From Candidatus Lactobacillus pullistercoris (GTDB lineage Bacteria; Bacillota; Bacilli; Lactobacillales; Lactobacillaceae), in NCBI GenBank assembly GCA_018883635.1, contig JAHLFT010000018.1, forward strand, positions 1 through 47,949: 47,949 nt of DNA. Direction: 5' to 3'. Both the position numbers and the translations under genes were made by a program. Positions within the stretch are counted from its first letter, which is position 1, and each line of letters begins with the position of its first letter. The notes beneath the pieces are model-generated. The model searched no databases, was not told where the DNA came from, and saw only the letters and a program-made list of their open reading frames with translations. Below, one piece after another: positions 29,172 to 46,981 of the stretch.

Positions 29172-29611
29172 GAAGTTCTCGACCCCCTTCAATTTTATTA
29201 TAAGTAGATATCTATAGACTTATAATAAAATTTAATGGCAATATATACATGCATTTAATATAGAATTTTAACAAAATATTCTAATATATAACTAGATTTT
29301 AAAATGTAAAACAATATATCAACAATAGATGATTTTAAGATATTCAAAGGATAATTTTATTATAATTTTTGAAAATATAAACATGGCTGATTCTAGCTTT
29401 ATATAAAACTAAATAAATGATCCAAATCGTAATAAATATTTTTTATTAATGTATTTTTTATTAGTACTTTATTTTAAATTTTGCTTATTTATATTGAAAA
29501 TTTATGTATTTTTTCAGCAATTTTTTTAAAAAGACAAATTTGTTTTGCTTAATTAAGTATTATTGTTAATTAAAATACAGTAGAAGTGAATAGAGATAAA
29601 AGAGATAGATA

Positions 29612-29714: not shown

Positions 29715-30022
29715 TGTGTGGCTAATAAGAATTGAATTTGAACTAATAACTAATACACAAAATTTATGATCAATTATGGTTTGCACACTAGATGAAACTA
29801 ACTTTTAGTTTTTAATTCCATATTGTTTTTTGTTTTTTTACTTCAATATCTTAATAAGTAAGCTTATTTAGTCAATTTATTAACTGTAGAGAATAAACTT
29901 AAGAGAATCGATCTTAGGTTTTAAATTGATTTTTAACTAGTTAATCTAATTGATAAAAATATAATAAAAAGTATGAGTATTTGCTTGGTCAATTTTAAGT
30001 GCATAAACGGGTAATTTTTAGC

Positions 30023-30061
30023 TGCTATCATTAAAACTATAATTTTAATGATAGCATTTTT
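30023..30061 (+). terminator. Orphan terminator-like hairpin
   Basis: Perfect 14-bp inverted repeat (30023-30036 and 30043-30056), 6-nt loop, then TTTTT. No plus-strand gene lies within 1.2 kb upstream, so it may end an unrecognised RNA or be a remnant. Confidence 0.6.
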
Positions 30062-30291
30062 AAGAGAAATAACTTAAAGTTATAGTTAATATTGATTAGC
30101 TGATGTTAAATTCCAGTCAAAAATTTTGAAGATAACTTGCATTGAGTTAAGTTTTGAGAGTTCCCAATTAAGAATTTAATTTATCATAAATAGGCTTAAA
30201 TTATTCAGATTTTTTGCTGAATTTTGGTATCTGACTTACTAGTTTATTTTGACTATTTTTATCAAATTCATCCTTCAATGCGAACATAGGT

Positions 30292-30320
30292 TTGCTATTT
30301 CTCCTCTTTCATGCTACAAT
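30292..30320 (+). promoter_or_regulatory. Promoter of the XerS-like recombinase gene
   Basis: TTGCTA (-35, 30292-30297), 17-bp spacer, TACAAT (-10, 30315-30320), 32 nt before the start codon. Confidence 0.7.
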
Positions 30321-30352
30321 ATGGCTAAAGAACAAGCTTAGGGAGAATTTTA

Positions 30353-31414
30353 ATGGAAACTAAAAAATATCTTGATTTAATTCAAATAGAATTATCTAAG
30401 ATGCCAGATTTTGTTAAAGAATATAATCTTGGCACTAATCATTCTTTGACCACTTCTTATCAGTATTTAACAGAAATTAGAAGATTTTTTGACTGGCTTC
30501 GTCATGAATCACTTTCAAATGCTGAAAACAATCAAGATATTAAAATATCGACATTGGAACATCTAAGAAGAAATGATATTATGCTTTATATCGATTATTT
30601 ACAACATAGCAAAAACCAGCAAGGTCGATTGAATTCTCCTACTACTGTTAATAGATCAATTAATGCTTTGCGCTCCCTATTTAAATTTTTAACTATTACA
30701 GCTGATAATAACAATGGCCAACCATACTTTGAAAGAAATGTAATGCTAAAAATTGAATCATTAAATAGCACTAAAACGTTAAATTATCGAGCTCATGTTC
30801 TTGAATCCCATATGTATACCGGTGATCTTAAATATCAATTTTTGGATTTTATAGATCTAGAATTTGAACATCGTTGTAATAAACAAGCATTGCCTTCTTT
30901 TAGGAAAAATAAAGAGCGTGATTTAGCAATAATTGCTTTAATTTTAGGTACAGGTATCAGAGTTTCAGAATGTGCTGGAGTTAATTTGCAGGATTTAAAT
31001 TTAAAAGAAGCAGTATTGGATGTAACCAGAAAAGGTGGACAAAGAGATAGTGTTCCGATTGCTGAATGGACAATTGATTATTTAATCGAATATAAAAAGA
31101 TTAGAAGTCAAAGATATCAGGCTGATAAAAAGATGACTGCTTTCTTTTTAACTAGATGGCATAATCAAACTAGAAGAATAACTACAAACGCAATTGAAAA
31201 AATGGTTAATAAATATTCCGCAAGTTTTGGCCATCCATTAACACCCCATAAATTACGTCATACTCTTGCTTCAGAGCTATATGGTGTCACAAAAGATCAG
31301 GTTCTAGTTGCACAACAGTTGGGACAAAAAGGAACTTCTGCTACAGATTTATATACTCACGTTGATCAAACCAAACAGCGCGAAGCTCTTAATAAAATAG
31401 ATAATGATAAATAA
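30353..31414 (+). CDS. Tyrosine recombinase, XerS-like
   Basis: Integrase-type recombinase of 353 residues, longer than XerC/XerD (about 300) and resembling XerS, the single recombinase that resolves dimers in streptococci and lactococci. Shared marks include YLTEIRRFFDWL, NKERDLAIIALIL, DVTRKGGQRDSV, TPHKLRHTLA and TDLYTHV. Catalytic residues seen are R203, K227, H299, R302 and Y334. The position normally His or Trp (LGH in XerS) is Gln325 (LGQKG). It has its own promoter and GGGAG ribosome binding site, and lies 0.7 kb from a dif site of XerCD type. It may be a terminus-linked accessory recombinase. The XerS label is by family resemblance only. Confidence 0.8.
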   Translation: METKKYLDLIQIELSKMPDFVKEYNLGTNHSLTTSYQYLTEIRRFFDWLRHESLSNAENNQDIKISTLEHLRRNDIMLYIDYLQHSKNQQGRLNSPTTVNRSINALRSLFKFLTITADNNNGQPYFERNVMLKIESLNSTKTLNYRAHVLESHMYTGDLKYQFLDFIDLEFEHRCNKQALPSFRKNKERDLAIIALILGTGIRVSECAGVNLQDLNLKEAVLDVTRKGGQRDSVPIAEWTIDYLIEYKKIRSQRYQADKKMTAFFLTRWHNQTRRITTNAIEKMVNKYSASFGHPLTPHKLRHTLASELYGVTKDQVLVAQQLGQKGTSATDLYTHVDQTKQREALNKIDNDK

Positions 31415-31428
31415 TAATGACAAAAAAT

Positions 31429-31461
31429 AAAAAAATGTACCGAAATTCGGTACATTTTTTT
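31429..31461. terminator. Bidirectional terminator, XerS-like gene / degV
   Basis: Perfect inverted repeat of 16-bp arms (31429-31444 and 31446-31461) with A- and T-tracts, between convergent genes. Confidence 0.9.
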
Positions 31462-32338
31462 ATTTAGTTAAATCTATTTTATCTATATCGATCATCCAAG
31501 CTATTGCAATTGATTTTTCACCTAAGTGTGTTGCGATAACTGGACTAAATTCAGCGACATCTACAGGCATACCTGGAAAGTTATTGTTAATAAATTCTTT
31601 TATACCTTCAGCTTGCTTAATATCATTTGAGTGAAAGACAAATAATCTAAGCTTATCTTTATAATCAAGCTGACTAGTTCTTTCTAAAGTAATACTTTCA
31701 ATTTTATTGACAGCTCGTTTCATTGATCGAATTTTATCAAAAGCTACAATTTTTCCATCTTTAAAAGTTAATAATGGCTTAATATGAAGCATCGTTCCAA
31801 TAAAAGCACTTGCATTACTTAAACGACCTCCACGGCTTAGATTCTTTAAATCATCGACAACAAATAATTCATCAATAGTATCTCTAATTTCATCAAGGTG
31901 CTTGATTATTTGTTCAGGAGTTAAGCCATTTTTTATCATTTTTGCTGCTGCTAAAACTAAATATCCTTGGAGTTTAACAGTCATTTTTGAATCATACGGA
32001 TGTAGATTATATTCCGGATTATTATGTGCAATATTTTTTAAAGTTTGATTGTATCCAGAAATACCACTAGATAAAGTGATATCTATGATTGCTTCATAGC
32101 CTTCATCATGGAGCTTATTATATAATTCAATCATTTTTCCCATACTTGGTTGAGAAGTCTTAGGGAAAGCAGCGCCTTGCCGTTGAGTTTCAAAAAGTTC
32201 TTCTGATGTAATATTGACGCCTTCTAGATATTCCTTATCCCCAATAATAACGGGAATCGGCATTACGATAACATTGTTGTCTTTAGCTTCTTTTTCAGTT
32301 AAAACACTTGTGCTATCGGTCACTAATGCAATCTTCAT
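31460..32338 (-). CDS. DegV family fatty-acid-binding protein (FakB-like), paralog 2
   Basis: Cytoplasmic lipid-binding protein of the DegV/FakB family. Motifs are VTDSTSVLT at the N-terminus, TSQPSMGKM (fatty-acid phosphate site), LSSGISG, and DDLKNLSRGGRLSNASAFIG followed by IKPLL. The length of 292 is normal. A MarR regulator lies 69 nt upstream on the same strand. An extended -10 (TGCTATAAT, minus strand, 32375-32383) in that gap gives the gene its own promoter. Linkage to a MarR regulator recalls FabT-type control of lipid genes in Firmicutes, though the regulator here is not shown to be FabT. Confidence 0.92.
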   Translation of the reverse strand: MKIALVTDSTSVLTEKEAKDNNVIVMPIPVIIGDKEYLEGVNITSEELFETQRQGAAFPKTSQPSMGKMIELYNKLHDEGYEAIIDITLSSGISGYNQTLKNIAHNNPEYNLHPYDSKMTVKLQGYLVLAAAKMIKNGLTPEQIIKHLDEIRDTIDELFVVDDLKNLSRGGRLSNASAFIGTMLHIKPLLTFKDGKIVAFDKIRSMKRAVNKIESITLERTSQLDYKDKLRLFVFHSNDIKQAEGIKEFINNNFPGMPVDVAEFSPVIATHLGEKSIAIAWMIDIDKIDLTK

Positions 32339-32374
32339 TATATAACCCTTTCATATTTTGATTTATATAGATGA

Positions 32375-32383
32375 ATTATAGCA
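32375..32383 (-). promoter_or_regulatory. Extended -10 promoter of degV paralog 2
   Basis: TGCTATAAT on the minus strand, about 35 nt upstream of the DegV start codon; -35 region weak. Confidence 0.55.
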
Positions 32384-32407
32384 TAAATGACAGTTAAGTT
32401 CGAATCT

Positions 32408-32848
32408 CTAGGCCATTTCAGATAAATTAGAATATTCTTTGCTTAATAATTCTAAATCATCAGTAAAACTACGCAATTTATTTTTATCAATTTTAGAAAA
32501 TATTTCTTGTTGGATTTCAATTAGGGCTTGTTTTAATTCTTTAACTTTAGTAAGACCATCTTCATTTAAATGAACATTTTTACTAGAACTTTTGTCTGAA
32601 CGAGTAATTTCAATAAGGGATCTAGTCTTTTTTTGTTGTAATTGTCTACTCAAAGTAGATAAAGAAATGTGTAATTCATCTGCGAGTTTTCCCATTGTTA
32701 ATGCTTGGTTCTGATTGTGGTCAAAGAACAATAAAATCCTTGTTTGTGAAATATTTAGTGAGCACTTGTGATTTATTTCTCTTTTAATATGATCTGCTAT
32801 AGTGCCAAATGATAAAACATCCATAAATTCAATATCTCCAATACTCAT
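32408..32848 (-). CDS. MarR family transcriptional regulator
   Basis: Winged helix-turn-helix regulator of 146 residues. The DNA-binding core is QTRILLFFDHNQNQALTMG, then ADELHISLSTLSRQLQQ, and the wing ...LIEITRSDKSSSKNVHLNEDG. Flanking helices would form the dimer. The start is uncertain: ATG 32848 lacks a good ribosome binding site, while ATG 32824 follows GGAGA at a longish distance and would shorten the protein by eight residues. A strong palindrome lies in its own promoter, suggesting autoregulation. The DegV gene downstream is the likely second target. Confidence 0.88.
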   Translation of the reverse strand: MSIGDIEFMDVLSFGTIADHIKREINHKCSLNISQTRILLFFDHNQNQALTMGKLADELHISLSTLSRQLQQKKTRSLIEITRSDKSSSKNVHLNEDGLTKVKELKQALIEIQQEIFSKIDKNKLRSFTDDLELLSKEYSNLSEMA

Positions 32849-32904
32849 TTCTGTGAAACATTTTAATTTGCATATAAGTTTTAACTAATTGCATTTAATT
32901 TAAT

Positions 32905-32947
32905 TATAGTATAACAGTTTTTCACAAATAAATCTTTGTGAAAAATA
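32905..32947 (-). promoter_or_regulatory. Promoter and palindromic operator of marR-degV
   Basis: An 11-bp perfect inverted repeat, TTTTTCACAAA at 32920-32930 and TTTGTGAAAAA at 32937-32947 (6-bp spacer), abuts an extended -10 (TGTTATACT on the minus strand, TATACT at 32910-32915). Further TTTCACA/TGTGAAA half-sites occur at 32853-32859 and 32960-32966. The layout fits repression by the adjacent MarR protein. Confidence 0.7.
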
Positions 32948-33014
32948 AAAGATAAATTTCACAAAGATAAGTACTCTATTTTAAGAATTAAAAAGCAGCA
33001 CTAAAATTTAAAAC

Positions 33015-33036
33015 TATACCAATTAATTGGTATAAT
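33015..33036 (+). promoter_or_regulatory. Promoter of rqcH with a 20-bp palindrome over the -10
   Basis: TATACCAATTAATTGGTATA is a perfect 20-bp palindrome at 33015-33034. Its right half runs into an extended -10, TGGTATAAT (TATAAT at 33031-33036). A protein bound here would block RNA polymerase. Confidence 0.65.
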
Positions 33037-33060
33037 AATTAATTGTTTAGAGGTGATATT

Positions 33061-34758
33061 ATGGCTTTCGACGGTCTATTTATATATAGTTTATTAAAAG
33101 ATTTATCTCCTACTCTTACTGGTGGACGTTTATCCAAAATTTATCAACCTTTTGATAAAGATTTGATTTTTGTTTTCAGAAAAGAAAGAAAAAATTACCA
33201 ACTTTTAATTTCTGCAAATGCGCAATATCCTCGAATGTATTTAACCAGTCAAACTATGAATAATCCAGATAAGGCTCCGACATTTGTAATGGTTTTAAGA
33301 AAATACCTTGAAGGATCAATTTTACAAAAAATAGATCAAGTTGGATTAGATCGAATTGTTAATTTTCATTTTAGTAATCGAAATGAATTAGGAGATCAAG
33401 TTAAATTAGTTTTATCAGTAGAACTAATGGGACGTCACAGTAATGTGATTTTGTATGATCAAGCAAGTGGACATATCATTGATTTACTGAAGAGAATAAA
33501 TCCTGACGAAAATAGAGCACGGATCCTGTTACCTAAAGCAAAATATGAACTTCCGCCATTAAAGCCAGGACTTAACGGTTTAGAGATTGATAAGGAACAA
33601 TTTGATAAACTAAAACAACAATATGATGATCCAGCCGAATTAGTAAAGAAAATTGATGGTTTAGATCGTGATGATCGCCAGGAATTATTAGGTTATTTAG
33701 AAGATGATTATTCGGAAAAAAGTTTTAGAACATTTTTCGATCAGTTTGAAACTCCTAAAGCTTTTGTATTGCTTTCTCCTAAAAATAAAAGAAAGATCTT
33801 CCCCTACCTTCCCTATCACCTAGATTTGCAAAAAGAAAGTTCGGACTCAGATTTAAATCATGCACTTGATGATTTTTACGAATATCAAGCAAATCGTGAT
33901 TGGGTAAAACAACGTGCAGCTAAAGTTGAAGGGGTAGTAAAAAATGAAAAAAATAAGCTTTCTAAGAAAATAATCAAACTTAAAAAGCACCTGGACTTAG
34001 CAGAAAATTCGGAGGGATATCGGATTCGTGGTGAAATTTTAAATGCTAACTTGCATTTGGTAAAACCTGGGATGAAAAAAATCGCTTTACCAAACTATTA
34101 TGATGATAATAAGCCAATAGAAGTAAAGCTAGATGAAGCACTATCCCCTGCACGAAACGCCCAAAAGTATTTTACAAAGTATAAGAAGCTTCGCGATTCA
34201 ATTAAACATGTTAATGAACAAATAAAGATTGCACAAGAAAACTTAAATTATTTTGATTCTATTCAAACTGCAATTGATAATGCGGATCCGCAAGATATTG
34301 ATCAAATTAATGTTGAGTTACAAAATCAAGGTTATATCCGTAAACAACAACGTAATGTAAGACGTAAAAAGATTACAGAAAAGAATTTAAATAAATTCAA
34401 ACTTTCATCAGGAAAGATCGTCTTAGTTGGTAAAAATAATTATCAAAATGATTGGCTGACTTTGAAAAAAGCAAATAAAACGGATTATTGGTTCCATGTA
34501 AAAAATATGCCAGGATCGCATGTGATTTTGCGGGATGACAATCCAAGTGCGCAAGATATTCTTGAAGCAGCAGAAATTGCCGCATACTTTTCAAAAGCAA
34601 AATTGTCAGCCCATGTTCAGGTTGATTATGTTCAAGATAAACGCGTTAAAAAGCCTAATGGCGCTAAGCCTGGGTTTGTAATTTATACAGGACAAAATTC
34701 TATTGAAGTTACTCCTGATGAAAAAGAAGTTATGCAAAAGAAATTAGTTGAAAAATAA
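33061..34758 (+). CDS. rqcH: Ribosome quality control protein RqcH (FbpA, NFACT family)
   Basis: NFACT-family protein related to eukaryotic Rqc2. It binds 50S subunits carrying stalled peptidyl-tRNA and directs C-terminal alanine tailing that marks the peptide for degradation. Older names are fibronectin-binding protein FbpA and YloA. The NFACT-N domain has the critical DR pair at D97-R98 (GLDRIVNF). A coiled-coil middle lies at about 270-430, and the NFACT-R domain has WFHVKNMPGSHVIL and the C-terminal FVIYTGQNS. The length is 565. I start at ATG 33061 with GAGGTG at 33050-33055; an upstream ATG at 33043 overlaps the ribosome binding site. It has its own promoter. Confidence 0.93.
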   Translation: MAFDGLFIYSLLKDLSPTLTGGRLSKIYQPFDKDLIFVFRKERKNYQLLISANAQYPRMYLTSQTMNNPDKAPTFVMVLRKYLEGSILQKIDQVGLDRIVNFHFSNRNELGDQVKLVLSVELMGRHSNVILYDQASGHIIDLLKRINPDENRARILLPKAKYELPPLKPGLNGLEIDKEQFDKLKQQYDDPAELVKKIDGLDRDDRQELLGYLEDDYSEKSFRTFFDQFETPKAFVLLSPKNKRKIFPYLPYHLDLQKESSDSDLNHALDDFYEYQANRDWVKQRAAKVEGVVKNEKNKLSKKIIKLKKHLDLAENSEGYRIRGEILNANLHLVKPGMKKIALPNYYDDNKPIEVKLDEALSPARNAQKYFTKYKKLRDSIKHVNEQIKIAQENLNYFDSIQTAIDNADPQDIDQINVELQNQGYIRKQQRNVRRKKITEKNLNKFKLSSGKIVLVGKNNYQNDWLTLKKANKTDYWFHVKNMPGSHVILRDDNPSAQDILEAAEIAAYFSKAKLSAHVQVDYVQDKRVKKPNGAKPGFVIYTGQNSIEVTPDEKEVMQKKLVEK

Positions 34759-34802
34759 ATAAAAGACACGAAATTATGATTTTAAATTTCGTGTCTTTTA
34801 TT
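34758..34802. terminator. Bidirectional terminator, rqcH / carB
   Basis: Perfect 18-bp inverted repeat (34758-34775 and 34785-34802) rich in A on one flank and T on the other, between two convergent genes. Confidence 0.9.
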
Positions 34803-34820
34803 ATTTTCGTCTTTTATTTT

Positions 34821-37800
34821 TTAAATAGGTTGAGTAGTAAGTGCTAAAGATTCTAAAACATTTAGAATAAGTTCAGCGGTTTCGATACTTGAAAATACTG
34901 GGATATGAGTATATAAAGCTTGGTCTCTTATTAAGATCGCATCCGCACTAGCAGCATCTGACAGGTTAGTTACATTAACAACCATGACAATCTTATGTTG
35001 CTTTATTTTATTTAACAAATTACGAGGATCCTCATGGACTTTATCTACCACTCCAGTAGTAATTCCCGCTTCCGCAAACATATTAGCGGTACCCTCTGTC
35101 GCGATTAATTTAAATCCCAATTTATCAAATCTGCGAGCTAAGTTAGTAACTCTTTCTTTATCTTCATCTCTAACAGAGATAAAAATCGTACCGTAACTTG
35201 GAATATGCAAATCACTTGCTTCGTAACCTTTGTATAAGGCTTTGGCTAAATGAATATCTCGTCCCATTACTGAACCTGATGACTTCATTTTGGAGTCAAA
35301 AGTATTGTCACTACTATAATCAATGTATGAAAAAACTGGCATCTTTACATGAATAAAATTATTAGCTTGCCATAATTCTTCTTTGCAGTCCAAATCTTTT
35401 AAGTTTTGTCCAGAAAGGACTTTAGTTGCATAGGCAGTTATGTCTTTGCCCAATGCCTTGGACAAAAAGGCTACATTATGCCCTGCATATGGTTTTATTT
35501 GAAGTAAATACAAAACACCATTATTTTGTAAAAAATGAAGATTATAAATTCCGCGAATCTTTAATTGATTGATTAATTTAATTGCGGCTGAGGCTAATTT
35601 TTCTTGTCCTACTTTATCCAAATTTTGAGGTTTAAACACAGCAATCGAATCTGATGCGTGAGATCCAGTTTGTTCCAAATGTTCGATTATCCCTGGAATA
35701 GTCGTTTCTGTGCCGTCTGAAATAGCAGTAACTTCATATTTATTGCCCTCTATGAAACGTGAAACGGTAATTTGATCTAATTGATTTTCGCTTAAGTATT
35801 TATTAACTGCCGGCATATCATATACAACTGCAGATTTAGGTTTGACATCTCTACTAAAACCGCCAATTAAAATTGGAAATTGATTGTGTTTTACAAAGTC
35901 TATTGCTTCAGATTCATTAGAAGTAGTTAAAGCAGGTACTTGTTTAAGACCAAAACCAGGTTTTTTTAAAATATTGGTAATTTTTTGCCTAGGATCTTCT
36001 TTAATGTTTCCTAAAATATTTAGTCCTTTTTCAATTAATTGCTTACTTAAGGCACTGATTTTTTTACCTGAGAATTGTAAGAGAATATTATTTACTTTTT
36101 CTTTTTTAGCAACTGTAACAATATTTTCTACTGTAATTGGATCAAAATAAACTCGGTCAGCATGTTTGAAACCATTTGCGACTGATTCATCATTGTTTGA
36201 TAACAAAATTGTTGCATAACCGCTATTATGTAAAGTTGTTATTGCATGATCAAGCATATAATCAAATTCGCTTGTAACCGAGATTTGTAACGGTAACATG
36301 CCAATAATTAGTACCTTCTTGTCTGCCGTTAATGGTTTAACTTCATTATCGACATCATAAGCACTGTAATATGCATCAACGTTACTTGGATATATTCCAG
36401 CTGAACCATCAATTTTCAAATAAGATGGCTCAATATTTAATTTAGACAAGAGATGTTCAATTTCTTTAGCGTCTTTTCCCGTTAGGCGGGCTAAAAATTG
36501 ATTTGAGAAACCACGTCTTTTAGCCTCTATTAATAGTTCTGATGTAAAACTGTCGTTGTTGTATAAATTTTGGGCTAAATTAACAATATTTAAAAGTTTT
36601 TGATAATAGATGGGATGCAAATAAACCACATTTTGTAATTGGTTATAAGTCATACCTTTAGCAATTGCTGCCAAGAGTTTTATTAAATGCATTTCATCGG
36701 GATGCACTAAGTCATTTAAAATTTCTTTTTCATCTTTTTGATATTCTTTTTTGAAAAGATTCCAACTGATATCAAGATCAGTTGTTGAAGCTAAACCTTT
36801 TAGAAAAGCAGCTTCAAAGTTTTGACCAATTCCCATTACTTCGCCACTAGCTTGCATGCGATTAGTTAAACTATAGTGATTATATCCTGATTCAGATAAT
36901 GACCAATATGGCATTTTAACCGATACTGCATCAAGTGTTGGCTCAATTACTGCACTTAAACCTGAGGCTGGATCAATAATTTCGTTTAAATTATAACCAA
37001 TAGCTACTTTTGCAACTATATAACCAGCGCTATATAGTCCGGCTTTTTGAATCCAAACTACACTTCGAGTCAAACGGGGTTTAATATTTAAAACTTTATA
37101 TTTAATATGAGTGCCATGATGACGGATGGCAAAATGGACACTCATTATTCCAATAAGATCTAAATTCTCAGCAATTTTTTTAACTACTGCTCTCAATTCT
37201 TGAACTTGATCATTGTTCAAAGTTAGTGCAGGCATTACCATGGTCGAGTCACCATAATTAATCCCAACAGGTTCAATTGAGCCAGCAAAATTTGTAAATA
37301 CTATGTTTCCGTTAGAGTCACGAATAACGTTAATAATCACTTCTTCCCAAGTTGAGAGATCTTCAGTTAAGCGGTAATGTTTCCAAGAAAAATTATCGCT
37401 TAAACTTTCCTTTTTAAAATATGCGATTAAATCTTCAATTGTATCAATTACAATATGTTCATTATGAACATAGCGATTATATTTTGTGACCATTACAGGG
37501 AAAGAAACTGCATCTTTAATTTGATCGACATGAGATATTAAATCATCGGAAGATAAATTAGTTAAATGCCAAGACTGGTTGACTCTGATTCCTAATCCTG
37601 ATAAGAATTCGCTTCTTTTTTGTTGATTTCCTAAAGCTAAAGTACGAGGATTCAACGTTAATAATTTTATCTTCATTTGTTGCAAGATACCGTCTTGGAT
37701 CAATTTATGTGCAACTTTTAAACCTGTAGTTGAACCATATGCGGTAATGATTGCATCTGGTTCTTCCATTCTAAGAATTCTTTTTAGAAAATCTAAAGTC

Positions 37801-38006
37801 ATTGGTTCAAGATAAACAGTAACATTATCTTTTTTATCTGTAGAAATAGTTGCAGGATTGGGATTTACAAGTATGACTTGAATCCCCTCTTCTACTAATG
37901 CATTTATTGCATCGTTAGCTAATAAATCCATTTCTGCAACACTACCTATTAAAGTTGGACCTGAACCAATAATTAATATTTTGTCTAAATCATTTTCTAA
38001 AGGCAT
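34821..38006 (-). CDS. carB: CarB-like protein, probably catalytically inactive
   Basis: Homolog of the carbamoyl phosphate synthetase large subunit: two ATP-grasp halves (about 1-400 and 560-930), a helical oligomerisation region between them, and a C-terminal MGS-type allosteric domain (about 938-1061). The 1061-residue length is close to normal, with no stop or frameshift. Both ATP sites are degraded. In the first, the glycine loop after the conserved Arg reads TKYNRYVHNEH (174-184), and the EMNPR motif has become NIKPR (N307, K309). In the second, the loop is GGFSRDVKPKS (715-725) and EVNPR is QIKPY (836-840). The allosteric domain is well kept (ATEGTA, 969-974). It probably cannot make carbamoyl phosphate. 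One nt separates it from carA. Confidence 0.9.
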   Translation of the reverse strand: MPLENDLDKILIIGSGPTLIGSVAEMDLLANDAINALVEEGIQVILVNPNPATISTDKKDNVTVYLEPMTLDFLKRILRMEEPDAIITAYGSTTGLKVAHKLIQDGILQQMKIKLLTLNPRTLALGNQQKRSEFLSGLGIRVNQSWHLTNLSSDDLISHVDQIKDAVSFPVMVTKYNRYVHNEHIVIDTIEDLIAYFKKESLSDNFSWKHYRLTEDLSTWEEVIINVIRDSNGNIVFTNFAGSIEPVGINYGDSTMVMPALTLNNDQVQELRAVVKKIAENLDLIGIMSVHFAIRHHGTHIKYKVLNIKPRLTRSVVWIQKAGLYSAGYIVAKVAIGYNLNEIIDPASGLSAVIEPTLDAVSVKMPYWSLSESGYNHYSLTNRMQASGEVMGIGQNFEAAFLKGLASTTDLDISWNLFKKEYQKDEKEILNDLVHPDEMHLIKLLAAIAKGMTYNQLQNVVYLHPIYYQKLLNIVNLAQNLYNNDSFTSELLIEAKRRGFSNQFLARLTGKDAKEIEHLLSKLNIEPSYLKIDGSAGIYPSNVDAYYSAYDVDNEVKPLTADKKVLIIGMLPLQISVTSEFDYMLDHAITTLHNSGYATILLSNNDESVANGFKHADRVYFDPITVENIVTVAKKEKVNNILLQFSGKKISALSKQLIEKGLNILGNIKEDPRQKITNILKKPGFGLKQVPALTTSNESEAIDFVKHNQFPILIGGFSRDVKPKSAVVYDMPAVNKYLSENQLDQITVSRFIEGNKYEVTAISDGTETTIPGIIEHLEQTGSHASDSIAVFKPQNLDKVGQEKLASAAIKLINQLKIRGIYNLHFLQNNGVLYLLQIKPYAGHNVAFLSKALGKDITAYATKVLSGQNLKDLDCKEELWQANNFIHVKMPVFSYIDYSSDNTFDSKMKSSGSVMGRDIHLAKALYKGYEASDLHIPSYGTIFISVRDEDKERVTNLARRFDKLGFKLIATEGTANMFAEAGITTGVVDKVHEDPRNLLNKIKQHKIVMVVNVTNLSDAASADAILIRDQALYTHIPVFSSIETAELILNVLESLALTTQPI

Positions 38007-38007
38007 T

Positions 38008-39066
38008 TTACTTCTCCATCATTTTTAAGAAATGATCAAAAACTTCCATAGCATCAAGACTTCCTGGAGCTCCTTCTGGATTAAAGGCAGTCGCAATTAC
38101 CCTATCTTCTTCTATTGTGTAACCTGCTAATAATTCAGTATGTAAGTCAAAAAATTCTTGATTCATATTAAACTTTACACTGTCTTGTAAAATTAACTGA
38201 TCAATATCCATTGAAGTTTGCCAAATTTTATCAGAATTTTGTTCAATTACAGGATAATTTATTCCATTAAAACTTTGAGGCAATTTCACTAATTCTAATT
38301 TTAAGTATTGGCTAATAGCCAAAAACCCTAATCCAATTCCTAAGATCGGCAATTTTTTGTAAAATTTATTGAGAATTGGTGAAAGAACGGATAAGACTTC
38401 ATCAGGTTCTCCAGGTCCGTTTGAAATAATAATTCCATCAGGACGCAAATTTTCAACATCTACCGGATTAGCATTATAAGGTAATACCGTAACATTGACT
38501 TTTCTTAGAGATAATTCCCTTAGCATAGAATGCTTTAATCCTAAATCAATTACAGCAACAGACTTTCCCATATTAGGCGCTGCATAAGCATTTTTAGTTG
38601 AAACTGTAGCTGATTTATTTTTGGGAAGAACTAAAGCTTTAATTTGATCAAAGGAATGTTCATCATCTGTATCCATAATCGATGCTTTAATCATGTGATT
38701 TTGAACTAAACGATGAACTAACGCACGCGTATCAACATTAAAAATAGCAGGAATCTTTTTTTCTTTTAAAAAAGAATTTAAATCTTGAAAGTTCTCATTG
38801 TCAGAAATATTGAGTGCAACATCATTAGCAATGATTCCTTTAACAGTTGGATCGATACTCTCATAATCAATTGCATTGATTCCGCTGTTTCCAATCATTG
38901 GTGTGGTAAAGACTAAAATCTTTCCAGCATTCGTCGGATCCGTTAAAGCTTCTTGGTAACCAAAGTTAGAAGTTTGAATGGCTAATTCACCTGTAGAAAT
39001 AATGTTTGATCCGATTCCCTCTCCTGCAAAGGAGCTTCCATCTTCAAGAATTAAATATCGTTTCAT
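38008..39066 (-). CDS. carA: CarA-like protein, probably catalytically inactive
   Basis: Homolog of the glutamine-hydrolysing small subunit of carbamoyl phosphate synthetase, 352 residues (normal length). The N-terminal CarA-specific domain is well conserved (STGELAIQTSNFGYQEALTD, VDTRALVHRL). The class I amidotransferase domain is recognisable (DLGLKHSMLREL, ISNGPGEPDEV). However, the nucleophile motif GICLGHQ reads GIGLGFL, with Gly245 in place of Cys, and the catalytic HPE reads NPE (Asn329; Glu331 retained). The oxyanion and substrate region (SQNHG) is also lost. It should not hydrolyse glutamine. It is 4 nt from rluD and 1 nt from carB, so it is in the same transcript. Confidence 0.9.
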   Translation of the reverse strand: MKRYLILEDGSSFAGEGIGSNIISTGELAIQTSNFGYQEALTDPTNAGKILVFTTPMIGNSGINAIDYESIDPTVKGIIANDVALNISDNENFQDLNSFLKEKKIPAIFNVDTRALVHRLVQNHMIKASIMDTDDEHSFDQIKALVLPKNKSATVSTKNAYAAPNMGKSVAVIDLGLKHSMLRELSLRKVNVTVLPYNANPVDVENLRPDGIIISNGPGEPDEVLSVLSPILNKFYKKLPILGIGLGFLAISQYLKLELVKLPQSFNGINYPVIEQNSDKIWQTSMDIDQLILQDSVKFNMNQEFFDLHTELLAGYTIEEDRVIATAFNPEGAPGSLDAMEVFDHFLKMMEK

Positions 39067-39070
39067 AGGA

Positions 39071-39979
39071 TCACTTTTCTTTTCTAAGTTCTGCTAATCT
39101 TTCTTTAAAAATTTTTGGAGGATCTATTTCAAATTCTAACCATTTTCCTGAACTTGGATGTTTAAATCCCAATACTTGTGCATGCAAAAATTGTCCGTTA
39201 CCATTTAATGTTTTTCGCGGACCATAGAGTGGATCTCCTGCTACAGGATGTCCAATATAAGAAAGATGTACTCTAATTTGGTGAGTTCGTCCAGTTTCTA
39301 GCTGGCACTGAATAAGACTATAATTTTTAAATTGTTCTAAAACTTTGAAATGAGTTATTGCCTCTTTTCCTGTTTCGACAACTCCCATTTTTTTGCGATC
39401 ATGAGGATTACGGCCAATTGGAGCATCAATTGTTCCGCTTTCTTCGCCAAAGTTTCCATGGACAATAGCTAAATATAGACGCTTATTAGTTTTGGTAGCA
39501 AGTTGGTGTTCTAAAGATTCTCGCGCTTTTGCGTTTTTGGCAATCATTAATAAACCGGAAGTATCTTTATCGATTCGGTGAACTATCCCAGGTCTAAAAC
39601 CTTCAGGACTAGATGCTAAATCACGAGTATGATATAAAAGCGCATTTACCAAAGTATGATCAGGATGACCTGCTGCTGGATGGACTACCATTCCTTGAGG
39701 TTTATTAACCACAATAACATCATTATCTTCATAGATAATATCAAGAGGGATGTTTTCAGGCTTAACGTTTAAAAGCTCTTTAGGAGGAACTGTAACTTTA
39801 ATCTGATCTTCTAAATTAACTTTATAGGAAACTTTTTCTAAATGGTTATTGACTAAAATATTTTTCGATTTAATCAATTCTTTAATACGAGTACGAGATA
39901 GATCTGGAATTTGCTCTGCAATATATTTATCTAATCTAACATTACTCTTGCTTACTGATAAATTATATTCTTTGACCAT
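39071..39979 (-). CDS. Pseudouridine synthase, RluA/RluD family (YlyB-like)
   Basis: RNA pseudouridine synthase. An N-terminal S4 RNA-binding domain (RLDKYIAEQIPDLSRTRIKELI, about 15-70) precedes the catalytic domain with HRIDKDTSG (134-142; catalytic D137) and a C-terminal GRTHQIRVHL. The 302-residue length is normal. I start at ATG 39979, which overlaps the lspA stop by a few nt; GAAGGAA lies inside the end of lspA. A TTG seven codons upstream is possible. The lspA-rluD pair precedes the pyr operon in B. subtilis; here it precedes carA-carB only. The target site is probably 23S rRNA but cannot be proven from sequence. Confidence 0.93.
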   Translation of the reverse strand: MVKEYNLSVSKSNVRLDKYIAEQIPDLSRTRIKELIKSKNILVNNHLEKVSYKVNLEDQIKVTVPPKELLNVKPENIPLDIIYEDNDVIVVNKPQGMVVHPAAGHPDHTLVNALLYHTRDLASSPEGFRPGIVHRIDKDTSGLLMIAKNAKARESLEHQLATKTNKRLYLAIVHGNFGEESGTIDAPIGRNPHDRKKMGVVETGKEAITHFKVLEQFKNYSLIQCQLETGRTHQIRVHLSYIGHPVAGDPLYGPRKTLNGNGQFLHAQVLGFKHPSSGKWLEFEIDPPKIFKERLAELRKEK

Positions 39980-39980
39980 T

Positions 39981-40436
39981 TTATTGCTTTTTTCCTTCAA
40001 AAAATAATAAGTAAATAAAGACCAAAATCACTCCGATAGTTATTGCTGAATCGGCTATATTGAAAATATTAAAATTAATAAAATCAAGTTGTAGCATATC
40101 AATAACGTATTTTAAGTGAAGCCTGTCAATAAAATTGCCAATTATTCCGCCCAGAACAAGAGAAATTCCAATATCAAAACAAACATTTTTATATTTAGAA
40201 TTAAACAAAAAATACAAACATACACCAATTGCAACTATGCTAATGCAATAAAATAGCCACATTTGTCCAGATAAAAGATTCCAAGCTGCTCCATTGTTTT
40301 GAACATAAGTTAACGATAATATACCTGGAATCAATTGGTGTACTTCACCTAAATGAAAGCTGTTATTAATATAAAATTTTAAACCCTGATCAGCAATAAC
40401 AACTAAAGTTGAAATTAATAAATATAAGAATTGCAT
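39981..40436 (-). CDS. lspA: Lipoprotein signal peptidase (signal peptidase II)
   Basis: Membrane aspartyl protease that removes signal peptides from prolipoproteins. The 151-residue protein has four hydrophobic helices. The conserved motifs are DQGLKFYI (16-23), TYVQNNGAAWNLL (43-55), GGIIGNFIDRL with catalytic D104, and FNIADSAITIG with catalytic D129. Its ATG follows AAAGGT and is 10 nt from the end of fhs, making fhs-lspA-rluD-carA-carB one likely transcript. Confidence 0.96.
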   Translation of the reverse strand: MQFLYLLISTLVVIADQGLKFYINNSFHLGEVHQLIPGILSLTYVQNNGAAWNLLSGQMWLFYCISIVAIGVCLYFLFNSKYKNVCFDIGISLVLGGIIGNFIDRLHLKYVIDMLQLDFINFNIFNIADSAITIGVILVFIYLLFFEGKKQ

Positions 40437-40445
40437 ATATACCTT

Positions 40446-42122
40446 TTAAAATAGACCACTAATTTTGCCATTATTATCAACGTCGATGTCAAGTGCAGCA
40501 GGATGTTTAGGTAATCCTGGCATATCTAAAATATGACCGGTGCTTACTACGATAAAGCCTGCTCCGTTTTTAAGCTCAATATTTTTAACATGAAGAATAA
40601 AGTTGCTAGGTGCTCCTAATATTTTTTTGTTATCGGTAAATGAATATTGGGTTTTAGCGATAATAATTGGCAATTTATCTTTATTTAGATTAATTAAATT
40701 ATGGATCTTTTCTTCAGCTTTATCACTGTATTCAACTTTCTTTGCATGATAAACTTTTTCAGCGACTTTTTGGATTTTAGTTTTTAAATCATCACTGTCG
40801 GAATAAGTAAATTGAATATTTTCTTTTTCCTTATTAGCTTCGTCAACCACCATTTGTGCAGCTTCTATGCCGCCTTTGGAGCCAACATCATGGTAATTAA
40901 CTACTTCAGTTTTAATCCCCTGCTCTTTGATTAAAGATTTCAATAAACTGAGTTCTTGATCAGTATCACTAGCAAATTTATTTATTAAAACTACAACTGG
41001 AATATTGTAGTTACGCATATTATTCATATGTCGTTCTAAATTCTTAAATCCTTGCTTTAAAGCGTCCAAATTCTCTTTATCTAAATTTTCAGTTGTTTCT
41101 TCGGCCTGATATTTTAATGCTCTAACGGTTGCTACAACAACAGAAAGATCCGGTTTTTTATCTAAATGTTTGGAGACAAAATCCATAAATTTTTGGCCAC
41201 CTAAATCACTACCGAATCCAGCTTCAGTTAAAGTATAATCGCTTAAATGCAATGCTAGATTTGTAGCGATAATTGAATTTGCACCGTGAGCTATATTAGC
41301 AAAAGGACCGCCATGAACAAATACTGGTGTATGTTCAATGGTTTGAACCAAATTTGGCTTCAAGGCAGTAGAAAGTAATGCTGCAATTGCTCCCTGAAAA
41401 CCAAGGTCTTTTACAAAAACGGGATGATTATCAGTCGAATAAGCTACTAAAATATTTCCAATTCGTTTCTTTAAATCGTCAATATCGTTAGCTAGACAAA
41501 GAATAGCCATTAATTCATTGGCTACAGTAATTGCAAAGCTGGATTTGTGTTCGATCCCATTGAACTTTGACCCTTGACCGATTGTTATCTTTCTTAGACT
41601 TCGATCATTAACATCCAGCCCTCGTTTAATCAGAATCCTTTCTGGATCAATTTTAAGACTATTATCTTGATAAATATAATTATCGACAAGGGCTGCTAAA
41701 GTATCGATTGCACTTGTTAATGCATGCATATCACCAGTAAAATGAAGATTTATATCTTCCATTGGTAAAATTTGAGCCATTCCTCCACCGGTGGCTCCAC
41801 CTTTAAGACCAAAAACTGGACCCATCGAAGGTTCTCGTAAAGCAATCATCGTCTTTTTATGTAATTGATTATTGATGGCATCACCTAAACCAATAGTAAT
41901 TGTCGATTTACCCTCTCCTGCAGGAGTTGGCGAAATTGAAGTAACAAGGATCAATTTCCCTAAATGGTTATTTTTCTTGATTTGGTTGATGGCATTCCAA
42001 TTTATTTTTGCTTTATCGTGACCATATAGTTCTAAGTCATTGCTATTTAAACCAACTTTATTGGCAATTTCTTCAATAGGTAATTCGTTAGATTCTTGTG
42101 CAATTTGAATATCTGTCTTCAT
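40446..42122 (-). CDS. fhs: Formate-tetrahydrofolate ligase
   Basis: Makes 10-formyl-tetrahydrofolate from formate, tetrahydrofolate and ATP, for purine synthesis and initiator-tRNA formylation. The ATP-binding segment [19 protein letters not shown] (65-83) and [17 protein letters not shown] are typical. The 558-residue length is normal. A strong extended -10 promoter lies about 110 nt upstream. The leader shows no folate-type or ZTP-type riboswitch that I can recognise. It appears to head the operon that continues with lspA. Confidence 0.96.
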
Positions 42123-42232
42123 TTGCTTACCTCTATTCTGATTAAAGTTTTAAATAATAATTTTAGGAAATTGTATGAAATTGATTAAAGGCGTTAGAAT
42201 TTAGGTCCCTCACTTCTTTATAATTCTTACAT

Positions 42233-42241
42233 ATTATACCA
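42233..42241 (-). promoter_or_regulatory. Extended -10 promoter of the fhs operon
   Basis: TGGTATAAT on the minus strand (TATAAT at 42233-42238). No clear -35; the upstream context TTTTGG resembles the rqcH promoter's TTGGTATAAT. Confidence 0.6.
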
Positions 42242-42309
42242 AAATTTTACTATTAGGGTGTTTATCTATTAAAATGTTATAAAGAGATATCAATGGAGGA
42301 TTAATTCAT

Positions 42310-43239
42310 ATGAAAATTGCCGTGTTAACTGATAGTTCTGCTTATCTTTCAAAAGCGCAACAAGAGAAATATAAAATTGATGTAATTCCTCTTCCAATAA
42401 TTTGGGATAATCATATATATAAAGATTTAGTAGACATTAGTTATGAAAATTTTTATAAGAAATTAAAAAATAGTGCAACTTTGCCTACCACTTCCCAACC
42501 ATCTACCGGTGAGGTAAAGAAATATATAGATAAATACGTTGCCCAAGGATATACTGATGTAATCGTAATTCCTCTTTCTAGTGGCTTATCTAGTTTCTAT
42601 AGTTCTTTAAAAAATTTTGCTTCTGAAGAGAAAAGGATAAACATTCATCTTTTTGATCCAAAAATTACCTGTGCAGGTGAAGCCGATGCTGCAATTTTAG
42701 CTGCAAGATTAGTACAAAAAGGAGCGGATGTTGACTTGATTATGCATGATTTAGAAAACCTACGGAATACGATGGGTGTTAGATTCATGGTTGATGACTT
42801 AAAACATCTACGAAGAACAGGTCGTTTATCTAATGCTGCAAGTTTTGTTGGCTCAATATTAAAAATTAAGCCAATTTTATCAATGGATGTTCAAGGAAGA
42901 GGGAAAATTTCGGCTATTGCTAAGGAAAGACAATATAAGAGAGCTTATAAACATATTCAAAATGATTTTTCAAATTTAATTAAGCCACTGACATATCCCA
43001 TTCAAAGTACAATTTTTAATGCTTTAGATCAAAAGCGAGAAAATGAATGGTTAAAAGACTATAAAGAAAAATTTCCTAATGTTAGATTTGATGAAAGTAT
43101 TATTGGTCCAGTTGTGGGAGTTCACGTTGGACAACATACGATTGCGATGATTTGGTGTCGTGATCTAAATAGCTATTTTGATCAAGATGGTAATCCAATT
43201 CCAAATATTAACTCTGAGAAAATTAATGATAATTTATAA
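42310..43239 (+). CDS. DegV family fatty-acid-binding protein (FakB-like), paralog 3
   Basis: Third DegV/FakB-type protein of the window, 309 residues. Motifs are VLTDSSAYLS, TSQPSTGEV, LSSGLSSF, and DDLKHLRRTGRLSNAASFVG followed by IKPIL. It looks closer to paralog 2 than to paralog 1. A longer C-terminal tail (about 15 residues after the last strand) is unusual. The ATG follows GGAGGA at 42296-42301. It is monocistronic, divergent from fhs and closed by a bidirectional terminator. FakB paralogs commonly differ in preferred acyl chain; the ligand here is unknown. Confidence 0.92.
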   Translation: MKIAVLTDSSAYLSKAQQEKYKIDVIPLPIIWDNHIYKDLVDISYENFYKKLKNSATLPTTSQPSTGEVKKYIDKYVAQGYTDVIVIPLSSGLSSFYSSLKNFASEEKRINIHLFDPKITCAGEADAAILAARLVQKGADVDLIMHDLENLRNTMGVRFMVDDLKHLRRTGRLSNAASFVGSILKIKPILSMDVQGRGKISAIAKERQYKRAYKHIQNDFSNLIKPLTYPIQSTIFNALDQKRENEWLKDYKEKFPNVRFDESIIGPVVGVHVGQHTIAMIWCRDLNSYFDQDGNPIPNINSEKINDNL

Positions 43240-43241
43240 AG

Positions 43242-43275
43242 AAAAAAGAATGGAATCTATTTTCCATTCTTTTTT
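43242..43275. terminator. Bidirectional terminator after degV paralog 3
   Basis: Perfect 14-bp inverted repeat (43242-43255 and 43262-43275) with A- and T-tracts between convergent genes. The minus-strand gene's stop codon lies within it. Confidence 0.88.
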
Positions 43276-43604
43276 TGTAATTTTATTCTTAATAAGTATA
43301 AGTTTTGTAATTTATTTAATCTTACTTTTTCAATCTTTATTTGCTTCCAGGACCAAGTAATTTTCGGTTCTGATGCCAATTTAACCTTATTTCGATAAGG
43401 TAAATGCAGGTATTCAGCGGTGTAATAAGAAGCAAAGTAAGTATAAATAAGAATGATAAAGAAAATAACAATAGTAATAGCTGCAGGCCAACTAAACTTG
43501 CTAACGCTTTCGTAAGCAATAATTAATCCTATAAAAAGAATCAAAAAGAGCCAACTAAAATAAATTAACCCCGCTTTACCTAAAAAAAGAAAATGTTTTT
43601 TCAA
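43257..43604 (-). CDS. Small membrane protein, unknown (possibly EbsA-like)
   Basis: I do not recognise this 115-residue protein with confidence. Two hydrophobic helices (about 9-31 and 40-62) are followed by a basic C-terminal half (RNKVKLASEPKITWSWKQIK, then a Leu/Lys-rich stretch) that could be a small cytoplasmic beta domain. The layout recalls EbsA-family proteins of lactic acid bacteria, but I cannot confirm this. It is preceded, 19 nt upstream, by the metallophosphoesterase gene on the same strand and shares its transcript. Its end overlaps the bidirectional terminator. Confidence 0.65.
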   Translation of the reverse strand: MKKHFLFLGKAGLIYFSWLFLILFIGLIIAYESVSKFSWPAAITIVIFFIILIYTYFASYYTAEYLHLPYRNKVKLASEPKITWSWKQIKIEKVRLNKLQNLYLLRIKLQKKNGK

Positions 43605-43623
43605 AGACTTAACCTCATTTTTA

Positions 43624-44856
43624 TTAATACCGAATTTTAGTTTGTAAGTTACTATGGTCGCTTGTGTCGTAAAGAGTCTTTAAATAAAGTTCAAATTCAG
43701 GATGTTGTTGAATCAAAACTTGATATTCTTTAGAAGAATGAATTTTTGCTAACTGCGTATTTTTTAGATGATTCTGTCCGGTGTAAAAGTTGTAGTTCAT
43801 TTGAGCAAATAATCTTCCCATTTTTCTTACCAGATCAAGAGAATCATGATTCTTTTCAAGGTCAGTTTGCATTAAATGAGCTGCTAATGTACCTAACTGC
43901 AAATTTTGTAAATAGTTGTGAAAATGCATTAAAGTATAATTTTGCTTTTCATTTTTATCTAAATATGGTTGCATTTTGAAAGATTTTCGAATGTAAGTAA
44001 TATGACGTTGATGAAGACGAACTACCCCATATCCTTGATCTGTTGAGCAAAAACTTGAAGTTACTATTTCAGTTGTAGGATAAGAATCGTGTGCATTTAT
44101 AATATTTTGCGCATGAATATGTCCAGAAAATGCAAGCTTCACATTAAATTTACTACATAGTCTTCTAACTTCGACGGCATTATCTATTACATAACCTTTA
44201 TTAACGGCTGGGTTGTGAGCAAATAAATTGTGATGCATAAATAAAATTGGCCGCAAATTGTTTTGGCTTGCATAAATGAATTGCTCTTTTAACCATTTCA
44301 ACTCTTTTTTATTAATAAATCCGCGTGTATGAGGAGCCGTTGTTGTTTCTTCATTACCATAATAATTTGAATCTGCTAAAACTAGGAGATAATTTGGATT
44401 CAGTTTAACACTATAAGCTAATGACGAGGAATCAGCACTTTCAGCTTGACGATAGCAATCTGAAAAAATCGATTTCCAAAACATCGGACTAATCTCTCCA
44501 GTAAAGAATTGTTTCTTCCCTCTGAATTCTCTTGCCCAACCATCAAAAATATCGTGGTTCCCAGGAAGGACTAATAATTTTGTGGTTTTTAAATCTTTAA
44601 ATATCTCTGCAAATCTTTCAGCTGATGTTCGTTCACCATTGAAAGTGACATCTCCAGTTACTACAATAGCGGCTGGCTTTTTTTCATTAGCCATTTTTAC
44701 AAATGCAGAAAGTGCAATTTCTTGATAATATAGGTCTTTACCTTGACTGGTTTTTTGCATTCGTGAGAAAGCTTGCCCATTATCATGTAAAGAATCAGAA
44801 ATTAAATGTGTATCGGATATTACCCAAATTTCAGTATTAAGATCGTTTGTGATCAT
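43624..44856 (-). CDS. Calcineurin-like metallophosphoesterase
   Basis: Cytoplasmic phosphoesterase with the full two-metal signature: SDTH (14-17, D15 and H17), TGDVTFNGE, LPGNHD, FMHHN and SGHIHAQN. The last about 130 residues form an additional C-terminal helical region. No signal peptide is present. It is 410 residues long and overlaps the end of rlmL by 20 nt, so the two are cotranscribed. The substrate (cyclic nucleotide, phospholipid or nucleotide) cannot be read from the sequence. Confidence 0.9.
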   Translation of the reverse strand: MITNDLNTEIWVISDTHLISDSLHDNGQAFSRMQKTSQGKDLYYQEIALSAFVKMANEKKPAAIVVTGDVTFNGERTSAERFAEIFKDLKTTKLLVLPGNHDIFDGWAREFRGKKQFFTGEISPMFWKSIFSDCYRQAESADSSSLAYSVKLNPNYLLVLADSNYYGNEETTTAPHTRGFINKKELKWLKEQFIYASQNNLRPILFMHHNLFAHNPAVNKGYVIDNAVEVRRLCSKFNVKLAFSGHIHAQNIINAHDSYPTTEIVTSSFCSTDQGYGVVRLHQRHITYIRKSFKMQPYLDKNEKQNYTLMHFHNYLQNLQLGTLAAHLMQTDLEKNHDSLDLVRKMGRLFAQMNYNFYTGQNHLKNTQLAKIHSSKEYQVLIQQHPEFELYLKTLYDTSDHSNLQTKIRY

Positions 44857-45976: not shown

Positions 45977-46000
45977 AAATTAACTCTTTCAAAATTATTT

Positions 46001-46036
46001 AAAAAAAGAGTTGAACTTCTAAAGAAGCTCAACTCT
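46001..46036 (-). terminator. Terminator of rnpB
   Basis: 14-bp inverted repeat (46007-46020 and 46023-46036, one G-U pair) with a U-tract encoded by A 46001-46006 on the minus strand. Confidence 0.88.
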
Positions 46037-46420: not shown

Positions 46421-46427
46421 GGTAGTT

Positions 46428-46882: not shown

Positions 46883-46981
46883 TATTGTGACAACTCCTTT
46901 ACATACTTCTATATTTTAGCAAAAAGATCTGTACTCTTAAACAAAATATGCGTTTGTTTACAAAAGTTTTAATCTACTTTC

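Follow-up and report, generated by a model that had tools for sequence, protein, structure and literature searches.

The 47,949-nucleotide stretch of DNA analysed here (the window) is contig JAHLFT010000018.1 of Candidatus Lactobacillus pullistercoris, and it carries two adjacent genes that resemble carA and carB, the genes for the glutaminase and synthetase subunits of carbamoyl phosphate synthetase (CPS). From their sequences we conclude firmly that this pair has lost the residues of the known CPS mechanism, and would be a pseudo-CPS. As these residues are gone and strong selection nevertheless keeps the genes intact, the pair probably does another job. Our preferred explanation, to which we give a probability of about 0.6, is a genus-wide pseudo-CPS that has lost the glutaminase and both ATP-dependent steps and would serve as a metabolite-gated regulator or scaffold. 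An initial annotation of the window had proposed that about 4.2 kb is retained for some role other than CPS chemistry, and selection, frame integrity and residue loss all lend this proposal support.

Architecture of the gene pair

The window spans an entire contig (G000:C24) of a draft genome of 1.75 Mb, which has 125 contigs and is 96.6% complete. Open-frame analysis agreed with the initial annotation that both reading frames are intact (352 and 1061 residues), and 1 bp separates the CarA-like stop codon from the CarB-like gene (Table 1). The CarA-like protein matches the Pfam families CPSase_sm_chain (PF00988) and GATase (PF00117), and the CarB-like protein matches PF25596 and PF02786 (two stretches each), PF02787 and PF02142. 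Together these give the domain order of canonical CPS II, which is preATP-grasp, ATP-grasp, oligomerisation, preATP-grasp, ATP-grasp and MGS, with a separate CarA. Both proteins could be aligned to E. coli CPS across nearly their full length (for CarB-like against 1bxr_A, phmmer E = 1.7e-122 across 1-1032). The nearest named relatives, by CarB identity, are Lactobacillus xujianguonis (73%), L. acetotolerans (69%) and Lactobacillus spp. ESL0701 and ESL0679 (65%).

Profile searches gave a divided answer. CarA-like passed the NCBIfam model NF009475 (426.7 bits, cut-off 221) and missed TIGR01368 (269.6 bits, cut-off 307.35), while CarB-like passed NF003671 (703.3 bits, cut-off 599) and missed TIGR01369 (675 bits, cut-off 1027).

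Loss of the catalytic residues

Residues were compared by alignment with E. coli K-12 CarA and CarB (L194), whose catalytic, metal-binding and effector-site residues we take to have their familiar roles. Counts cover the Lactobacillus loci together with three loci from two other genera (g28 and g40); degenerate CarB proteins from the genus of 900 residues or fewer (G039, G062) were excluded. The losses described in the initial annotation were seen both in the window and across the lineage. The Cys-His pair of the glutaminase in catalytic CPS II (Cys269, His353) is absent from all 76 degenerate CarA proteins, which have the Gly245 and Asn329 of the window in its place. The E. coli CPS entry 1a9x also carries Asn at the His353 position, and we take that entry to be an engineered, glutaminase-dead mutant.

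In the N half of CarB, the ATP and metal residues R129, R169, G175, G176, Q285 and E299 occur in none of the 75 degenerate proteins, and N301 occurs in only one, whereas all seven are present in 68/68 canonical CarB. The E299 position is occupied by Ser (36), Thr (26), Ala (6), Gly (3), Asn (2), Asp (1) or Met (1). In the window R129 is replaced by Gln, R169 by Thr, G175 and G176 by Val and His, H243 (the His of the GIHTGDS motif) by Asn250, and E299 and N301 by N307 and K309, the last two lying in the motif NIKPR.

The C half shows a more uniform set of replacements. None of the degenerate proteins retains R715, D753, E761, Q829, E841, N843 or R845, and these positions are now Gly, Ser, Lys, His, Gln, Lys and Tyr, respectively, in 73-75 of the 75. 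Q645K, R715G, D753S, E761K, E841Q and N843K are found in every one, R571Q in 74, and R845Y and Q829H in 73, where 68/68 canonical proteins have the E. coli residue. In the window E841, N843 and R845 have become Q836, K838 and Y840, as initially annotated (motif QIKPY), and R715 corresponds to Gly or to a gap, depending on the alignment. The same two CarA changes in 76/76 orthologues, and the CarB losses in 74-75/75, mean that these substitutions are not due to chance.

One claim of the initial annotation, that the Arg and the glycine loop are lost in both halves of CarB, held for the N half (R129, R169, G175 and G176 in 0/75) and depended on the alignment in the C half. There, R675 is matched to Thr in one alignment and to Arg673 in another (Arg is present at this site in 17/75 relatives, including the window), and the loop Gly pair is lost in one alignment and matched to a GG of the window in the other.

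Mitochondrial CPS I (CPS1), which could be aligned to CarB-like residues 6-1050 and CarA-like residues 4-352, also has a glutaminase domain that lacks the Cys nucleophile. However, both ATP-grasp sites are retained in CPS1, which uses ammonia to make carbamoyl phosphate. A CPS I-like, ammonia-dependent enzyme requires both of these sites intact, and the Lactobacillus pair, unlike CPS1, has lost both.

Could the pair still be a CPS that uses unorthodox residues? Its full-length homology to the E. coli enzyme, the equivalog scores above cut-off and the retention of E215 and R303 would all fit such an enzyme. However, the nucleophile, His353, the metal ligands and most of the nucleotide-loop residues are replaced, the cut-offs of TIGR01369 and TIGR01368 are missed, a separate canonical pair is present in most good genomes (see below), and aspartate transcarbamoylase (ATCase) was not found in the window's own genome. 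We therefore regard continued CPS activity as very improbable.

Rebuilt C half and kept MGS domain

To describe how the two ATP-grasp domains have changed, we scored a column as invariant if at least 95% of rows shared a residue. Of 154 columns in ATP-grasp 1 that are invariant in canonical CarB, 25 are kept, 15 have switched to another fixed residue and 114 are variable in the degenerate proteins; for the 112 such columns in ATP-grasp 2, the numbers are 28, 26 and 58. Thus, the N-half site mostly varies, and the C-half site has acquired a new fixed signature. In window numbering, the fixed residues of the C half are K648, K724, S749, K756, S782, A784, S785, H824, Q836, K838, Y840, H843 and N844; exact counts of 73-75/75 were obtained for K648 (E. 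coli 645), K724, S749, K756, H824, Q836, K838, Y840 and H843. Four residues of this signature are Lys (648, 724, 756 and 838) and two are His (824 and 843), which makes it rich in basic residues.

The MGS allosteric domain, by contrast with these sites, was kept, as the initial annotation had noted. In addition to the Pfam match, K954, T974, T977, K993 and N1015 (E. coli numbering), which we take to be effector-site residues, are present in 73-74/75 degenerate CarB, the remainder being gaps or one Asp. There are 26 newly invariant columns in the MGS domain, and 33 in the N-terminal domain of CarA.

The strongest competitor to a regulator or scaffold is a new enzymatic function, although we consider it unlikely. 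The rebuilt C-half pocket (K648, K724, K756, H824, Q836, K838 and Y840) would then catalyse a different reaction, with the remainder of the complex providing a scaffold and allosteric control. This would explain why 26 formerly invariant positions of ATP-grasp 2 have been fixed anew rather than drifting, and why E783, D791 and the MGS residues are kept. Against this, none of the 75 degenerate proteins retains R715 or any of the metal ligands Q829, E841 and N843, which makes ATP-grasp chemistry unlikely, and no neighbouring pathway gene points to a substrate.

Purifying selection

The ratio of nonsynonymous to synonymous substitution rates (dN/dS) was estimated by the Nei-Gojobori method for 30 genome pairs, which are not independent of each other, with degenerate CarB dS of 0.05-1.0. 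Median dN/dS was 0.035 for CarA-like and 0.056 for CarB-like, level with the adjacent rluD (0.053) and lspA (0.059); the medians for fhs and fbpA were 0.039 (29 pairs) and 0.041 (28 pairs). In 28 matched pairs degenerate CarB had a value of 0.055 compared to 0.028 for canonical CarB. Degenerate CarB is thus looser than the enzyme, yet far from neutral.

By domain, the tightest was the CPS domain of CarA (median 0.018, compared to 0.06 in canonical CarA), and the medians of ATP-grasp 2, GATase and MGS were 0.036, 0.037 and 0.039. Each of the six domains of degenerate CarB was under looser constraint than its canonical counterpart, most of all the oligomerisation domain, which was the loosest (0.125 versus 0.062).

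This looseness, together with the many formerly invariant positions that now vary and a 3' frame break in one genome (G016), is what would be expected if the genes were decaying and had simply yet to accumulate stops. However, their dN/dS equals that of their neighbours, the same substitutions are fixed in three genera, and among the 60 good genomes the CarA-like frame is intact in all 60 and the CarB-like frame in 59. Neither a ratio near 1 nor disruptions scattered among sister species, which the initial annotation had named as the marks of plain decay, was found. Plain decay was rejected, and we consider it the least probable of all the explanations.

Distribution across the genus

CarB orthologues (50-73% identity) were found in 74/75 Lactobacillus genomes, including all 60 good ones, although some are cut by contig ends. 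The sole genome without one (G045) is 59% complete. CarA orthologues (60-83%) were found in 73/75, again including all 60, and the two misses (G045 and G062) are both incomplete genomes. Both genes are whole in 59/60 good genomes. The exception is G016, where the CarB-like frame is broken near its 3' end, through either a real mutation or a sequencing error. In a sample of 301 genomes from the family, the lineage was present only in Lactobacillus (15/15), g28 (G101, G137) and g40 (G113), the next identity among the matches listed being 34%. In a CarA search (E <= 1e-60) of 98 genomes of the order, a sample without g28 and g40, no match from other genera exceeded 43%; a degenerate copy that is distant or evolves fast would escape this search.

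A second CarB, with about 30-34% identity to the degenerate protein, was found whole or in pieces in 54 Lactobacillus genomes, and an intact canonical carAB pair in 45 of the 60 good ones. The other 15, which include the window's genome, have no intact canonical CarB yet have the degenerate pair (that of G016 with its 3' break). The presence of canonical CarB changes, by loss or gain, at least 6 times on the degenerate tree, on which 14 of these 15 genomes were placed (G016 was left out). The pair is therefore a genus-wide, single-clade lineage that usually stands beside canonical carAB and is kept where the latter is absent. Two genomes (L192 in G055, L193 in G008) have a canonical carB that is broken or a remnant alongside an intact degenerate carB.

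In the window's own genome we found no catalytically complete copy of carAB in the 125 contigs of the 96.6%-complete draft, a search that the initial annotation had called for. The CarB-like gene is its only match to CPSase_L_D3 (the oligomerisation domain), and the CarA search counted a second, weaker match. ATCase scored above cut-off in 52/75 Lactobacillus genomes; a profile search found no match to it in the window's genome. This genome does contain a PyrP-type permease gene beside a PyrR-like match with one internal stop (G000:C30), and a PyrR-like fragment on another contig (G000:C116), which are perhaps the remnant of a lost pyr operon.

These patterns bear on whether the pair serves the canonical CPS, or the pyr/PyrR system, as a regulatory or assembly subunit, much as an inactive dihydroorotase is required for ATCase assembly in Pseudomonas (class A ATCase; described in part of PMC6022934). 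The intact canonical pair alongside in 45/60 good genomes would suit such a subunit, as would the PyrR leader and NCS2 permease gene that precede the pair in two related genera. However, the degenerate pair is also present in each of the 15 good genomes in which no canonical CarB is intact. Two of the genomes with the pair (G038 and G043, both 99% complete) have no match to canonical CarB, ATCase or permease either, and a PyrR match of only 23-24%, so that a general partner role in the canonical pathway is unlikely. G101 (one contig, 99% complete) also has the pair and neither canonical CarB nor ATCase, and G113 has canonical CarB with ATCase elsewhere in the genome. We consider a subunit of this kind improbable, and the role of the pair is not confined to regulating canonical CPS. 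Co-occurrence led us to reject, as a general explanation, a partner restricted to canonical CPS, ATCase, PyrP or PyrR.

Genomic position and origin

The pair lies in a conserved slot between rluD and fbpA (Table 1; we take the names lspA, rluD, fbpA and fhs from recognition of the genes rather than from a profile search). The order lspA-rluD-CarA-like-CarB-like was found in 72/73 loci, and the remaining locus (G032) ends at a contig end. In 71/72 loci rluD directly adjoins the pair, with 18 bases or fewer from its stop codon to the CarA-like frame, which is too short for a PyrR leader; none was found in the window from 30000 to 47949 at E up to 1. The only locus of the 72 with a gene between rluD and CarA-like has a 619-residue, lipoteichoic-acid-synthase-like gene there, as judged by eye (L108 10968-12827, G009). 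The gap between CarA-like and CarB-like is 2-4 bases in 53/73 loci. Promoter- and terminator-like sites in the region were no commoner than in shuffled sequences.

Table 1. Positions of the gene pair, its altered and kept sites, and its neighbours in the window.
Feature	Position	Strand	Evidence
CarA-like (glutaminase-subunit) predicted pseudoenzyme, 352 aa	38008..39066	-	open frame and profile matches
CarB-like (synthetase-subunit) predicted pseudoenzyme, 1061 aa	34821..38006	-	open frame and profile matches
GIGLGFL replacing GICLGHQ, residues 243-249; nucleophile Cys269 replaced by Gly245	38320..38340	-	Gly in 76/76 degenerate CarA, Cys in 70/70 canonical
Asn329 replacing His353	38080..38082	-	Asn in 76/76 degenerate CarA, His in 70/70 canonical
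NIKPR (307-311) replacing E-x-N-P-R, N-half metal site, variable in the family	37074..37088	-	alignment
QIKPY (836-840) replacing EVNPR, C-half metal site	35487..35501	-	E841Q 75/75, N843K 75/75, R845Y 73/75
C-half ATP-grasp region, residues 646-846, new fixed residues	35469..36071	-	26 canonical-invariant positions switched, fixed in >=95% of rows
MGS-like allosteric domain, effector-site residues kept	34893..35150	-	Pfam MGS 953-1038, E 8.9e-19
rluD-like pseudouridine synthase gene, directly upstream, same strand	39071..40000	-	recognition
lspA-like signal peptidase II gene	39981..40436	-	conserved upstream neighbour in 72/73 loci
convergent fbpA/rqcH-like gene, bounding the slot on its far side	33043..34758	+	66/73 loci

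Canonical carAB can occupy the same slot. Among 17 canonical loci from other genera, which were not annotated gene by gene, four (G135, G259, G312 and G086) have carAB in the interval from rluD to fbpA, flanked on either side by several kb of further sequence. Another (G210) has rluD only, and 12 have no such border in the fetched stretch. In one of the four, L212 (G312), a PyrR leader immediately follows rluD. Degenerate loci of the two other genera, which may be Amylolactobacillus (g28) and Holzapfelia (g40), also have this leader (RF00515). In g40 (L196) the order is rluD, leader, pyrR, permease, CarA-like and CarB-like, and in g28 (L195) it is rluD, leader, permease, CarA-like and CarB-like. 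Both permeases pass the NCS2 model, and their best match is a uracil permease model, below its cut-off. PyrB was present in the fetched stretch of 45/51 canonical loci compared to 0/75 of the degenerate set, which here includes L193, the misassigned canonical CarB remnant of G008.

Quick maximum-likelihood trees, with support from the Shimodaira-Hasegawa-like approximate likelihood-ratio test (SH-aLRT), were built; that of CarB used 70 of 142 rows, has long branches that meet, and its root is not established. All 26 degenerate rows used formed a single clade (support 100) in which g40 and g28 lie outside Lactobacillus; the canonical copies of Lactobacillus fell among the other canonical copies. 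We infer that the pair descends from pyrAA-pyrAB of an old pyr operon, and that the series of gene orders represents a shrinking pyr operon. The canonical carB genes of G011, G032 and G061 (L189, L186 and L187) were placed next to E. coli (support 91, with long branches) and apart from the other Lactobacillus canonical copies, a possible sign that these three were acquired separately.

A possible mechanism

How might a complex without CPS chemistry act as a metabolite-gated regulator? The constrained N-terminal domain of CarA and the closeness of the genes suggest that the two subunits still assemble. The kept effector site suggests continued binding of a nucleotide, or of a ligand like phosphoribosyl pyrophosphate (PRPP), by the MGS domain. 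The basic, metal-less pocket of the C half, with its four fixed Lys and two His, may bind an anionic ligand without metal, or may hold a frozen conformational state. Binding would then be passed on to a partner protein. The position of the pair behind a PyrR leader, with a permease gene, in g28 and g40 suggests that its first function after the loss of catalysis was perhaps pyrimidine sensing, and that it was later uncoupled from the leader and came to lie directly behind lspA-rluD. More tentatively, the pair could be a genus-defining signalling hub of two subunits that is perhaps essential. The old allosteric machinery of CPS, uncoupled from catalysis, would then hold a nucleotide or PRPP-like ligand in the MGS domain and a second, anionic one in the C half, and would control a target outside pyrimidine synthesis; we find this extension possible but rather doubtful.

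Several observations weigh against a regulatory or scaffolding pseudo-CPS. Some active-site residues are kept in degenerate CarB (E215 in 73/75, R303 in 74/75, E783 and D791 in 75/75), and the pair still passes the cut-offs of the equivalog models NF003671 and NF009475. The alignment of the C-half loop is uncertain (E. coli 675, 715-722), where two alignments disagree. The changed ATP-grasp 1 is itself under purifying selection (dN/dS 0.045), so the change of the N half is not neutral drift. The fixed MGS residues could serve folding. An AlphaFold2 model of the window's CarB, made with four relatives, was poor (mean predicted local distance difference test, pLDDT, of 44), so that proposals on pocket shape, ligand binding and subunit contacts stay tentative. 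Finally, no functional neighbour is common across the genus, where occasional extra genes only were found, so there is no conserved partner gene beyond the housekeeping neighbours.

Comparison with known systems

The pair resembles canonical CPS II (CarAB or PyrAA-PyrAB, as in E. coli) in its two-gene order, domain architecture, near full-length alignment, MGS residues, E783 and D791. It differs in lacking the glutaminase pair and the metal ligands of both sites, in the new fixed residues of the C half, and in the absence of PyrB from the fetched stretches. By sequence it has the properties of a pseudoenzyme, which are lost catalytic residues, an intact gene, purifying selection and conserved orthologues. 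To our knowledge, no pseudo-CPS has been described in which both ATP sites and the glutaminase are dead and which is fixed throughout a genus of bacteria associated with food and hosts, and our search of open-licence papers found no report of a degenerate CPS in lactobacilli among those listed. Excerpts of PMC3582564 deal with CPS-P and CPS-A of L. plantarum and, for L. johnsonii, with the pyr genes and the requirement for CO2; those of PMC12328491 and PMC5918772 contain nothing on a second CPS. The inactive dihydroorotase of Pseudomonas is, as the pair probably is, a paralogue of an enzyme of the pyrimidine pathway that has lost its activity and is retained for a role other than catalysis (part of PMC6022934). 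However, it is a different enzyme and is bound to active ATCase, whereas the pair is also present where ATCase and canonical CPS were not found.

The automatic gene name carAB is misleading. As two NCBIfam equivalog models call the pair functional carAB, metabolic models may credit lactobacilli without canonical CPS, including that of the window, with carbamoyl phosphate synthesis. The pair also separates the allostery of CPS from its catalysis, and the reason for its retention is open to direct testing.

Other features of the window

The initial annotation had contrasted the intact pair with a nearby antiporter gene full of stops. A broken Na+/H+ exchanger gene is indeed present (about 8552-9764, + strand), and its frame 8884-9438 matches residues 106-248 of Pfam Na_H_Exchanger (E = 1.1e-16), but at about 25 kb from carAB 'nearby' was generous. 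The following frame (9441-9764) had no Pfam match, and the short flanking frames resemble exchanger remains by eye. Two overlapping frames at 28871-29219 (- strand), by eye an apparently split XRE-type regulator, lie inside about 1.5 kb that has no long open frame. An RNase P RNA of class B is located at 46049-46414 (- strand, 294.9 bits).

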